Origin: Acidobacteriota bacterium
GTDB lineage: Bacteria > Acidobacteriota > Terriglobia > Acidiferrales > UBA7541
Direction of reading: 5' to 3'
Assembly: GCA_003224235.1 (NCBI GenBank)
Contig: QHYU01000153.1
Location: 1 to 60,051, forward strand
DNA length: 60,051 nt
The position numbers and the translations under genes are program-made. The notes beneath the pieces were generated by a model. The model was not told the origin of the DNA and searched no databases. It worked only from the letters and a program-made list of their open reading frames with translations. Each line of letters begins with the position of its first letter. Position 1 is the first letter of the stretch. This document shows, piece by piece, positions 26,687-30,831 of this stretch.

Positions 26687-27640
26687 CTATGCTCGCGGCG
26701 CGCTCGGTGTTTGCGAGATCAGCGGAAAGCCGCGGCGCCGCCAGCCGTCGAGCCCGCCGGCCAGCGGGCGAATGCGGGTAATTCCCTTGCGGCGGAGGAG
26801 CAGCGCCACACGGGCGCTGGTGGCTTCATTGGGTCAAGTACAGTAAAGCACAACCTCCCGGTCGCGCGGGATAACATCGCTTCCCTCTTCCAGTTCGGCC
26901 GCGTCCAAGCGATGCGCGCCGGGGATGGTGATTGGTTCGGCCTCGAAGTCGAGCGAGTGGCGCAGGTCCACGATCACCACATCCTCGCCCGCATCGAGCT
27001 TCTGCTTGAGCTCTTCCGGTGTGATCCGCGCGATCCGCAACGCGTGCAGGAACTGCTGCCGGTGGACAAACTTCCAGCCGATGTAGGCGGCCAAGGCGCC
27101 GACCAGGATCGCGAGCAGCCAGCTTCCAAAGGTAAGCGCGCGGTCCGCGACGCGCTCGAGCTGGTTGCTGAACGCGAAGCCCAGCCCCACAAACACGCTA
27201 ACCCACAGCAGCGTACCCAGAGTGTCGAAGAGCAAAAAGCGGTCAAGCCGCATGCCGAATATCCCGGCCAGTGGTGGGGCGGCGGTACTGAGCCCCGGAA
27301 TGAACTTGGCCAGGACCAGCGACCCGGCTCCTTGCCGCTCAAAAGTGCTCTCGGTGCGGCGGACGCAGGAATCGGGCTCCAGCGAAATGCGGCAAAGAAA
27401 CTGGAGCACCCGGACACCGCGGCGGCGGCCGAGCTCGTACCAGAGCACGTCGCTGATCACTGCGGCGACCACGGGCAGCCCGACGACCGCTGTAACCTTC
27501 AATCGGCCTGCGCCCGCCAGTGCTCCGGCCGCGAGCAGCAACGGCACAGAAGGCAGCGGCAGACCGATCTGCTCGGCAAACACCCAGGCGAACAGCACCA
27601 AGTAGCCATGTTTCACCAGGAACTGCAGCGTTTCACTCAT
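26687..27640 (-). CDS. DedA-family membrane protein fused to a rhodanese domain, with in-frame TGA (candidate selenocysteine)
   Basis: The ATG at 27640 opens a DedA/SNARE-associated membrane domain (VFAEQIGLPLPSVPLLLAAG, later LVLAKFIPGLSTAAPPLAG) with about five hydrophobic segments. A cytoplasmic rhodanese domain follows (ITPEELKQKLDAGEDVVIVD, IPGAHRLDAAEL, REVVLYCT). At 26834-26836 the frame meets TGA as codon 269. It then continues without interruption for 48 codons: PNEATSARVALLLRRKG, PLAGGLDGWRRRGFPL, and TAG at 26687-26689. In rhodaneses of this type the motif is YC-x-CPNEATSA, and the Cys before PNEATS begins the six-residue active-site loop, so TGA replaces the catalytic residue. A hairpin at 26801-26819 suits a SECIS. 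If translation stops at TGA the rhodanese is inactive. Either a selenocysteine sulfurtransferase or a recent nonsense change or base error. Confidence 0.6.
26801..26819 (-). promoter_or_regulatory. Candidate bacterial SECIS hairpin
   Basis: On the minus strand CAGCGCC, loop CGTGT, GGCGCTG form a perfect 7-bp stem with a 5-base loop. The loop begins 22 bases after the TGA at 26834-26836. Bacterial SECIS elements sit within the coding region just after UGA, with the apical loop roughly 16-37 bases away and a G among its first two bases; both conditions are met here. GC-rich DNA makes chance hairpins common, so this alone proves nothing. Confidence 0.45.
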
Positions 27641-27881: not shown

Positions 27882-28589
27882 TCAGCCCGTCGTTTGATGA
27901 TTCGCCGCCTGTGCGTGGGCGACCAACGGGGCCACCTGGCCCCATCGCCCGGTGAAGACAAATTGCTCGAGCGGTTTGCGGGTGCGCGGTGCCAGCTCGC
28001 GTGCGCGCAGCGGCTCGGGCAGAGACTCTGCCTCACCCCGGTAGCCCAGCGCTATAGCCGCCGTCGGCTCCCAACCCTCGGGAATATTGAACACCTCGCG
28101 CGCCTTGTCCACGTGGAAGCCTGCCATCTGGTGCGCGGCGAGTCCCATTGCGGTGGCCTGGATGATCAGGTTTTCGCTCGCCAGGCCGACATCGTGAAAC
28201 GCGTGCCGGTTGGGCTTACCGTTGCGCTCAAAGTTGAGCCGGGCCAGCGATAGCATGAGCACCGGGGCGTGCTGCGCCCAGACGACGTTGCCCTCCACTA
28301 GGACACTGAGGAGGCGAGCAAATTCGACCGGTTGCTCCCGCGTGGCCAGCAGATACGCCCACGGCTGCTCATTGTAAGACGAGGGCGCCCAGCGGGCTGC
28401 TTCGAGCAGGCTGCATAGTTTCTCCGGCTCAACCGGCCGGTTGGCAAATGCACGAGGGCTCCAGCGGCGTCTCAACAGGTCGTGAATCGGACAGCTCGTG
28501 TTCGCCAGCTTTTCCACAATCCCCTCCCCGCACATCAAATCGTCCAATGGAACGGCCGCCATGCCAAGGTAAGCATCCTCGTGCCCCAT
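27882..28589 (-). CDS. Nitroreductase family protein
   Basis: The protein of about 235 residues shows the FMN-binding pattern of the nitroreductase fold: RRRWSPRAFANRPV near the N-terminus, ARWAPSSYNEQPWAYLLAT, then ASENLIIQATAMGLAAHQMAGF and a C-terminal AIALGYRGE. These NAD(P)H-dependent enzymes reduce nitro, quinone or related groups; the physiological substrate is not evident. Possible starts are ATG at 28589 or 28562; neither has a strong ribosome-binding site. It lies upstream of the DedA-rhodanese gene on the same strand with 241 bases between, so joint transcription is uncertain. Confidence 0.88.
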   Translation of the reverse strand: MGHEDAYLGMAAVPLDDLMCGEGIVEKLANTSCPIHDLLRRRWSPRAFANRPVEPEKLCSLLEAARWAPSSYNEQPWAYLLATREQPVEFARLLSVLVEGNVVWAQHAPVLMLSLARLNFERNGKPNRHAFHDVGLASENLIIQATAMGLAAHQMAGFHVDKAREVFNIPEGWEPTAAIALGYRGEAESLPEPLRARELAPRTRKPLEQFVFTGRWGQVAPLVAHAQAANHQTTG

Positions 28590-28685
28590 CAATCCGCTCT
28601 GAGCTCCTGCCGCCGGATGGCAGACAGCCTGTAGTGAGATTCAGAACCTCCGGGACAACCCTTGTCAGGGCAAGGAGTTACGCCC

Positions 28686-29318
28686 TCAATTTCCGCTTTT
28701 CCCTGGCGCGGGAGCAGCCTTCTTCACCAGCTCGACGTCAACCGTAATTGTCACATCGTCGCCGACTACAACTCCGCCAGATTCCAGCGGAGCATTCCAA
28801 GTCAGGCCAAAGTCCTTGCGGCTGATCTTCGCGGTGGCCGAGGCGCCGACCCTCACATTGCCGTGAGGATCCTTGATCGCTGGGGTTGGGCCTTCGACAT
28901 CGAAGGTGACCTCGCGAGTAACGCCGTGGATGGTCAGATCCCCGGTAAGCTTGTACCTGCCGGGATCGACCGCGACGATGCGCTTAGAGCGGAAAGTCAT
29001 CGTTGGGTACTTCTCGACATCGAGGAAGTTAGCACCGCGCAGGTCTGCATCGCGCTTCGGCACGCGGGTATTGATCGTCGTGGTATCGATGCTGACCTCG
29101 ACCGTAGAGCGGGTAGGATCCTTTTCATCGAGGTTGACGACGCCAGCCAACTTGCTGAACTCGCCCTTGATGTTGGAGATCATCATATGGCGCACGGAAA
29201 ATTGTGCGACGGAATGCGCTGGGTCAATCTGCCAAGGTGTGCTCTGGGCCCACGACGGCACCGCGAGCGCGGCGAGCAGAGACGCCGCAACAACGAAACG
29301 AGTGGTTGCTTTGGACAT
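28686..29318 (-). CDS. YceI family periplasmic protein
   Basis: The 210-residue precursor has a signal peptide ending near SLLAALAVPSWA, then the YceI lipocalin-like barrel: WQIDPAHSVAQFSVRHMM, the conserved VEVSIDTTTINTR, FLDVEKYPTMTFRSKRI, LTGDLTIHGVTREVTFDV and SRKDFGLTWN. YceI proteins bind isoprenoid-type lipids and are often stress-induced. The ATG at 29318 has a strong AGGAGGGG six bases upstream, which rules out the longer in-frame reading that runs back to 29900 through marR on another frame. A motif at 29355-29376 upstream matches that before the adjacent marR gene, suggesting MarR control. Confidence 0.93.
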   Translation of the reverse strand: MSKATTRFVVAASLLAALAVPSWAQSTPWQIDPAHSVAQFSVRHMMISNIKGEFSKLAGVVNLDEKDPTRSTVEVSIDTTTINTRVPKRDADLRGANFLDVEKYPTMTFRSKRIVAVDPGRYKLTGDLTIHGVTREVTFDVEGPTPAIKDPHGNVRVGASATAKISRKDFGLTWNAPLESGGVVVGDDVTITVDVELVKKAAPAPGKSGN

Positions 29319-29354
29319 GGCTTTTCCCCTCCTGTCCTTCGATGATAAGAGGTC

Positions 29355-29392: not shown

Positions 29393-29878
29393 TCACCGCT
29401 GGCCCCCGGGTGGTGTTCCCTCCCGCACCTGCTCGAGCAATTCGGCCAGCACCCGCAGGCGCCGGGGCTCGATGTGCCGCAACTGACGCCGGTGCAGCGC
29501 GCTGATGGGTTCGTCCAACTCTCTTAGGATGCGTAAGCCGGCCGGGGTGATACGCGTTTCCACGACGCGCCGGTCGGCGCGCCCCCGCGCCCGGCTCACT
29601 AAGGCCCGTGCCTCCAGGCGGTCGAGCAGCCGGGTAATATCCGGGTCGCGCGTGAGCATCCGTTCGCCGATCTCCTGGCAGGCTAGCCCCTGCCGGCCGG
29701 CCCCGCGGAGAATGCGCAGAACGTTGTACTGCGTGTGAGAGAGTTCGACTGCCTTGAGGATCTGCTCGACATCGCGCAGCAGGGCATCGGCAGTCCGCAG
29801 CAGGTTCAGGAAAACTTCGTTTTCCAGGCCGCGGGCGGGCCGCCTGGGTCTCGTTACGCCGTTGGGCCGCGCTGGCAT
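29393..29878 (-). CDS. MarR family transcriptional regulator
   Basis: The 161-residue protein has the winged helix-turn-helix of MarR: LSHTQYNVLRILRGAG, CQEIGERMLTRDPDITRLLD as recognition region, and the wing GRADRRVVETRITPAGLRIL with the conserved DRR. A basic N-terminal tail precedes the dimerisation helices. MarR proteins usually repress their own gene and a neighbour and are released by small phenolic or oxidant ligands. The neighbour yceI is 74 bases downstream on the same strand with its own operator-like site. The predicted transcript starts at the A of the ATG. Confidence 0.92.
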   Translation of the reverse strand: MPARPNGVTRPRRPARGLENEVFLNLLRTADALLRDVEQILKAVELSHTQYNVLRILRGAGRQGLACQEIGERMLTRDPDITRLLDRLEARALVSRARGRADRRVVETRITPAGLRILRELDEPISALHRRQLRHIEPRRLRVLAELLEQVREGTPPGGQR

Positions 29879-30111: not shown

Positions 30112-30831
30112 CTAAGGTTTCTGCGTGGGGCGAATCAGCACCTCGCTGATGAAGCTCTGCGCCGATTGAGTGACCAGCGCCGCCACTACATGCGCTATGT
30201 CCTCGGCTTCCAGCATTTTGGCCACATCCTTGCCGGTGTGTGGCGAAAACTCCGTCGCCACCGTGCCGGGACAAATCACGCTGACGCGGATGCCGTAGGC
30301 ACGCAAGTCTTCGGCCATGCAGTAAGTTAGCCCCTGCAGACCCCACTTTGAAGCGCAATAGACGCCGCCCCCGGCGAAGGCGTTTTTGCCTGCCAGCGAA
30401 CTGATGTTGATGATGTGGCCGGTTCGTCGTTGGATCATCTCCGGCGCCACTGCCCGACTTGTAAGAAACGCCCCCTTCAAATTGGTGTCTAATACAGCGT
30501 CCCAGTTCGCTTCACTGGTCTCGTGAACGGGACCGAAGACGCCGATGCCGGCATTGTTCACCAGAATGTCGATCGGGCCGAAGGCCTTGCGAGTGCGCTC
30601 AACCAGCGCCGCGACGTCGCCCGGGCGCGTAACGTCAGCAGGGACGCCCAGGGTCTCCACCCCGGCCCGGCGTAACTGCTCGGCAGCTCCCTCCAGCGCT
30701 CTGACGTTCCGTGCGCAGATGGCCACCCGGGCCTGCAGGCGGCCCAGGCGCCCGGCGATCGCTAGGCCAATGCCGCGGCTCGCGCCGGTTACCAACGCCA
30801 CTTGTCCGCTGAGGGGCTGTGCCGGATCCAC
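30112..30831 (-). CDS. Short-chain dehydrogenase/reductase (classical SDR)
   Basis: The 239-residue protein has all classical SDR motifs: nucleotide-binding TGASRGIGLAIAGRL, NNAGIG, the catalytic Ser in INISSLAG, and YCASK with catalytic Tyr and Lys, followed by the ICPGTVATEF segment. The Arg in TGASRGIG and CARN suggest NADPH preference. It resembles FabG-like 3-oxoacyl reductases, but the family is too broad for a substrate. The start is GTG at 30831. The gene is divergent from the TPR-type gene, with about 270 bases between. Confidence 0.9.
   Translation of the reverse strand: MDPAQPLSGQVALVTGASRGIGLAIAGRLGRLQARVAICARNVRALEGAAEQLRRAGVETLGVPADVTRPGDVAALVERTRKAFGPIDILVNNAGIGVFGPVHETSEANWDAVLDTNLKGAFLTSRAVAPEMIQRRTGHIINISSLAGKNAFAGGGVYCASKWGLQGLTYCMAEDLRAYGIRVSVICPGTVATEFSPHTGKDVAKMLEAEDIAHVVAALVTQSAQSFISEVLIRPTQKP

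Follow-up and report, generated by a model that had tools for sequence, protein, structure and literature searches.

The DedA-rhodanese gene described here raises the question of whether a TGA triplet inside its reading frame ends the protein or is decoded as selenocysteine (Sec). The gene lies in a window of 60,051 nt (the whole stretch of DNA that was analyzed) and its host is a soil/groundwater acidobacterium with a genome of 4.57 Mb in 237 contigs, which is 99.4% complete.

Gene organization and the in-frame TGA

The minus-strand frame from 27640 to 26687 reads M...REVVLYCT-TGA-PNEATSARVALLLRRKG...AGGLDGWRRRG... and then a terminal stop, with the TGA as the only internal stop. Its start codon is the same as in relatives according to the alignment. 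The following features were assigned, with invariance given over 53 aligned family members:

26687..27640, minus strand: DedA(VTT)-rhodanese gene ending in TAG; its product has 317 residues if Sec is inserted at the TGA
27365..27394, minus strand: codons of Cys83 to Cys92 in the DedA part (CRISLEPDSC), both Cys invariant (53/53)
27179..27556, minus strand: VTT/DedA membrane domain, residues 29-154 (Pfam PF09335, 59.2 bits)
26735..27022, minus strand: rhodanese domain, residues 207-302 (Pfam PF00581, 47.3 bits; NF041203, 91 bits; 3tp9, Z 17.3)
26840..26842, minus strand: TGT codon of Cys267, the putative partner of Sec269 in a CxU motif (C in 53/53)
26834..26836, minus strand: in-frame TGA, codon 269, in the rhodanese active-site loop, predicted Sec codon

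When the TGA is taken as a residue, both Pfam cut-offs are passed (59.2 bits against a gathering score of 33.9 for PF09335 and 47 against 22 bits for PF00581), and the rhodanese domain thus spans the TGA. The first-pass annotation had described a DedA-rhodanese frame that crosses the TGA to the TAG and carries a complete rhodanese C-terminus behind it. Both points hold, since there is a single internal stop and the PF00581 match continues in the same frame, intact, to residue 302.

Codon 269 among homologs

The contigs were scanned for homologous loci with one genome per species. Among the best 80 of 572 loci, codon 269 is TGA in 52, TGC in 19, TGT in nine and no other codon in any. A second collection, which overlaps in part with the first, consists of 30 stored orthologous loci from the host genome and 60 related genomes; 21 of them have TGA and nine have TGC or TGT at the homologous codon. 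The recurrence of TGA in 21/30 orthologous loci and in 52 of the best 80 of 572 excludes chance. The record labels of these best 80 loci include Acidobacteria, Rokubacteria, Methylomirabilota/NC10, Deltaproteobacteria/Myxococcota, SAR324, Nitrospira, Verrucomicrobia and others, all taken from MAG records and therefore open to mislabeling. When the Sec column is masked in the protein tree, codon 269 switches between Sec and Cys at least nine times.

The TGA could in principle have arisen by an error in sequencing or by a recent nonsense change, so that the protein ends at 268 residues; TGC turns into TGA by one substitution, and the base rests on a MAG. The first-pass annotation had kept such a nonsense change or base error as its alternative. 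The same TGA is present in a same-genus genome and in 52 of the best 80 of 572 independently assembled loci, more than 40 further codons are intact after it, and the synonymous-level conservation right behind it (see below) is confined to TGA-bearing genes. More than 50 other bacterial genomes share both the TGA codon and the downstream hairpin, and the occurrence of the same TGA in this many independently assembled genomes rules out a base error in practice, leaving this alternative a negligible probability. Aligning relatives across the TGA, a check that had been proposed along with it, revealed only TGC/TGT or TGA at this codon and no decay downstream. Locus L079 has, in addition to the Sec codon, another in-frame stop at codon 162, which represents either an assembly error or a decayed gene.

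The UGA might also act as a selenium-dependent switch that yields a 268-residue DedA protein without the rhodanese active site when selenium is scarce, given that all UGA-Sec sites compete with termination. Truncation would, however, remove the nucleophile and, from the C-terminal side, about a third to a half of the rhodanese fold, and the Cys lineages produce only the full-length protein. We therefore consider such a switch very unlikely.

A hairpin downstream of the TGA

26801..26819, minus strand: predicted bacterial SECIS stem-loop CAGCGCC-CGUGU-GGCGCUG, loop at 26808-26812, assigned by comparative conservation

The stem of this SECIS-like hairpin begins 14 nt after the UGA, and 21 nt separate the UGA from the loop. 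Bacterial SECIS elements are recognized as a stem-loop just downstream of the UGA with a small apical loop containing a G (PMC1088965), and the hairpin at 26801-26819 has this form. The folding energy of the single hairpin of the host is unexceptional (z -0.97), and the support for it is comparative. Of 66 distinct TGA sequences, 65 keep all five inner pairs together with the loop G (the loop G alone is kept in 66/66), whereas a null of 2000 draws, in which synonymous codons were sampled from the genes' own usage, gives 4.9 ± 2.1 and a maximum of 15 of 66. The five inner pairs are found in only nine of 34 Cys sequences.

The conservation extends to the synonymous level. In the TGA genes, synonymous identity reaches 0.96-0.97 at the seventh, ninth and tenth codons behind the TGA; the background of these genes is 0.44 (sd 10%), and the Cys genes show 0.47-0.50. 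The Arg codon in the loop of TGA genes is CGT or CGG (AGG once) and never CGC or CGA, even though these genes use CGC most often for Arg. Two-sided compensatory changes have affected three different pairs in distant lineages (GC to AU in L048, CG to UA in L063 and CG to UA in L107).

A stem with an altered loop is kept in nine Cys loci (L059, L061, L083 and six others). They probably derive from an earlier Sec form of the gene, since a retained stem with a changed loop is what would be expected of Cys genes descended from Sec genes.

Selenocysteine machinery

The search of the host genome for sel genes, also proposed beforehand, recovered the complete set: selA (534 bits), selB (366 bits), selD (364 bits) and a tRNA-Sec with a UCA anticodon, which scores 67.8 bits on the Rfam tRNA-Sec model and has the 3' end ...CTTCCG-CCA, i.e., G73. 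The selD gene (L131, G000:C159:44109-45047) has an in-frame TGA of its own (...KAAG-TGA-AAKLSPG), located in the N-terminal region where SelD selenoproteins carry Sec; by its sequence it is itself a selenoprotein gene.

Across genomes, selB is present in 46 of 47 genomes with the TGA form versus 11 of 33 with the Cys form, with E thresholds of 1e-55 or 1e-60 for a match; a few of the genomes counted (e.g., G092, G070 and G085) have partial or below-cut-off matches. Fisher's test gives p of about 1e-10 for this association on pooled genomes, ignoring descent; an independent-pairs test found three well-supported pairs, too few for a sign test. The only TGA genome without a selB match (G010) is 84% complete and has a tRNA-Sec of 63 bits. 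The tRNA-Sec model search found no tRNA-Sec in several TGA genomes. All three of the matches to this model near 50 bits that were checked are tRNA-Ser, for which reason selB was taken as the marker. Two side observations concern tRNAs of other genomes. One genome encodes two tRNA-Sec(UCA) genes 3.6 kb apart (L149, G006:C2:1111500-1116500). In another, a tRNA with a UUA (ochre) anticodon, scoring 56.6 bits on the tRNA-Sec model, lies beside a tRNA with UAU (L150, G002:C71:1200-1650), a pair that resembles the acidobacterial allo-tRNAs of the literature.

Global reassignment of TGA was rejected, as neighboring genes end in TGA: it is the normal stop in six of ten of them (histidine kinase, NtrC, nitroreductase, YceI, MarR and purC), indicating that the recoding is local. 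This also bears on whether a suppressor tRNA, for instance of the selC*-type tRNA-Cys(UCA) described for some delta-proteobacteria and other anaerobes (PMC7609411), reads the UGA as Cys or as some other standard amino acid. Orthologs do use Cys at codon 269. Nevertheless, the UCA tRNA found in the host fits the tRNA-Sec model and has G73, as opposed to U73 in selC* tRNA-Cys, selA and a selD of the Sec type are present, the UGA is followed by a conserved hairpin of SelB type, and ordinary genes are still ended by TGA, which together make suppressor decoding highly improbable. UGA codon 269 is almost certainly decoded as Sec. The Sec-for-Cys replacement suggested in the first-pass annotation is supported by a codon that is only ever TGA, TGC or TGT, by the sel genes and by the conserved SECIS-like hairpin.

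The rhodanese domain and a putative CxU pair

An AlphaFold2 model built with 53 homologs (pLDDT 84.8) has nine helices followed by a rhodanese fold. In a structure search, the rhodanese part aligned to 3tp9 with an rmsd of 1.4 over 106 residues (Z 17.3); other solved matches were the persulfide dioxygenase-rhodanese, CoA-disulfide/persulfide reductase, GlpE and YgaP. The search covered the rhodanese part, and no solved DedA structure stood among the matches listed. In all 53 rows of the alignment C267, D225 and R227 are invariant and residue 269 is C or U, so that a C-x-(U/C) motif is present throughout. The invariance of both Cys267 and residue 269 (as Cys or Sec) suggests that they form a CxU redox pair. 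Which of the two occupies the classical nucleophile position is not fully settled. The six residues from Sec269 to Ser275 (S or A in the 53 rows) correspond to the CX5S spacing between the usual rhodanese nucleophile and the loop-end Ser-Ala and point to Sec269, while HMM alignments tend to set Cys267 on the usual rhodanese Cys, with a two-residue insertion.

The protein is probably a membrane-anchored Sec sulfurtransferase or thiol-redox enzyme, a reading we favor to a fair degree. SelB and tRNA-Sec would decode the UGA, directed by the stem-loop 14 nt downstream. The Sec269 selenolate would then attack a sulfane-sulfur or oxidized substrate, giving an Se-S (perselenosulfide) or selenenic intermediate, which Cys267 could resolve via a Cys267-Sec269 selenenylsulfide that cellular thiols would reduce. 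This specific Cys267-Sec269 cycle is proposed tentatively, with its chances somewhat below even.

Rhodaneses with in-frame stops were also encountered elsewhere in the relatives. Stand-alone rhodaneses with TGA in a TYCT-TGA motif (L134, G055:C41; L135, G013:C79) probably belong to the known LYCAU family (see below). Genome G013 has a DedA-rhodanese with Cys, although its stand-alone rhodanese has TGA. In a further rhodanese (L142, G055:C70), which is probably exported, the TGA directly follows Tyr (VVFY-TGA-QSGRRAERAA), placing Sec at the classical Cys position. Candidates with TAG or TAA at the rhodanese active site (in G012, G002 and G032) were dropped, as these stops are ordinary terminators.

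The DedA domain

The stretch KFVHRQQFLHALRIAR after the last predicted helix is strongly positively charged, which indicates that the rhodanese domain most likely faces the cytoplasm. An alternative reading accepts the selenoprotein but assigns its job to the DedA domain, as flipping of UndP or phospholipid, with the rhodanese as a regulatory thiol switch. COG0586 DedA proteins are UndP flippases, some of them with rhodanese domains (PMC10127716), there are weak matches to the UptA models, and E39 of YghB is retained as E23 in 48/53 rows. Against this, the position of YghB R136, which is essential (PMC10127716), is S, N, G, D or A (residue 118) and that of R130 is K112 in 53/53 rows, such that the two-Arg feature of the second re-entrant helix is absent from the DedA part, and the position of D51 holds V, I, L, A and other non-acidic residues. 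The equivalog models for UptA (61 vs a cut-off of 250 bits) and DedA (64 vs 236 bits) are missed by far. With R136 and D51 lost and R130 changed to Lys, the DedA part is best not classed among the UndP flippases, and we consider the flippase reading unlikely.

The Cys83/Cys92 pair is absent from E. coli YghB. It was considered as a mark of the fusion and rejected, because the three closest unfused DedA relatives share it. More speculatively, a lipid-handling DedA domain could be run or sensed by a Sec redox relay (Cys83/Cys92 and Cys267/Sec269) in a widespread unlisted selenoprotein family, coupling membrane lipid/polyprenyl traffic or trans-membrane sulfur handling to the selenium/redox state; we regard this as a long shot. 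The best explanation as a whole is, with high confidence, a selenoprotein; it would combine a DedA domain with a probably cytoplasmic Sec rhodanese that may use CxU chemistry.

Gene neighborhood

Four genes precede the DedA-rhodanese gene (locus counts refer to the best 80 of 572 loci):

27882..28592, minus strand: nitroreductase-family gene, directly upstream (Pfam PF00881; upstream on the same strand in 12/80)
28686..29345, minus strand: YceI-family gene, the real start being slightly inside the scanned frame (PF04264, 178 bits; 14/80)
29393..29878, minus strand: MarR-family regulator gene (Pfam PF01047; 14/80)
30112..30831, minus strand: short-chain dehydrogenase (SDR) gene, head of the cluster (PF00106; upstream on the same strand in 17/80)

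About a dozen of the closer loci, with TGA and Cys forms alike, have SDR, MarR, YceI and nitroreductase genes upstream in the same orientation. Such a cluster suggests a set of regulated genes for stress or redox functions, and these neighbors suggest that the protein may help the cell to withstand reactive sulfur, oxidants or electrophiles at the membrane.

Comparison with known proteins

As in E. coli YgaP, the rhodanese is attached to a membrane segment, and the two folds align (2mrm, Z 12.9). In YgaP, Cys63 is the nucleophile and two TM helices follow the rhodanese domain; here, in contrast, a large DedA domain precedes the rhodanese and the predicted nucleophile is Sec.

Rhodanese-like selenoproteins, which the first-pass annotation had mentioned from metagenome surveys, are indeed tabulated (PMC13188914). 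Rhodanese form 3 (CxU) corresponds to NCBIfam NF041203 rhodanese_LYCAU, 'rhodanese-related (seleno)protein' (PMC13188914). This model matches 53/53 family members at 1e-10 or better, with the DedA-rhodanese protein itself at 91 bits, under the curated cut-off of 115. The rhodanese domains are homologous and share a CxU after the beta strand (LYCAU vs LYCTU here), but NF041203 models a stand-alone domain of 126 positions, whereas our protein has an N-terminal DedA/VTT membrane domain. Other selenoprotein rhodaneses comprise forms 1, 2 and 4 and TsoB (rhodanese/DsbD fusion-like) (PMC13188914). They likewise have Sec in the rhodanese loop, and TsoB too is a fusion, with a partner that is DsbD-like by name. 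Their motifs are UxxS, UxxG or UxxxxU with no DedA listed, unlike the CxU found here, and the TsoB model scores 14 bits on the DedA-rhodanese protein versus a cut-off of 805.

DedA-rhodanese fusions have been described as P. aeruginosa PA1209 (PMC12893004) and among COG0586 proteins (PMC10127716). They have the same order of an N-terminal DedA and a C-terminal PF00581 rhodanese, but no Sec is reported for them as described there. The purpose of the fusion has been left open ('connection to UndP is unclear'; PMC10127716).

A May 2026 review of 119 prokaryotic selenoprotein families mentions neither DedA, VTT, PF09335 nor COG0586, and no NCBIfam model (June 2026) fits the whole protein. A full-text literature search combining DedA with selenoprotein or selenocysteine, with most subscription papers outside its scope, returned nothing relevant. 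Judged on comparative sequence evidence, this is a real selenoprotein gene, and the predicted DedA-rhodanese Sec fusion is a new domain architecture on a known rhodanese selenoprotein theme.

The fusion would add an integral-membrane architecture to the selenoproteome, in a gene that standard annotation truncates by taking the TGA as a stop and that is found in many genomes labeled Acidobacteriota, Rokubacteria, Methylomirabilota and Myxococcota. Its natural Cys forms allow a direct comparison of Sec and Cys. For DedA-rhodanese fusions, the prediction is that the rhodanese loop would be a working redox center under strong selection.
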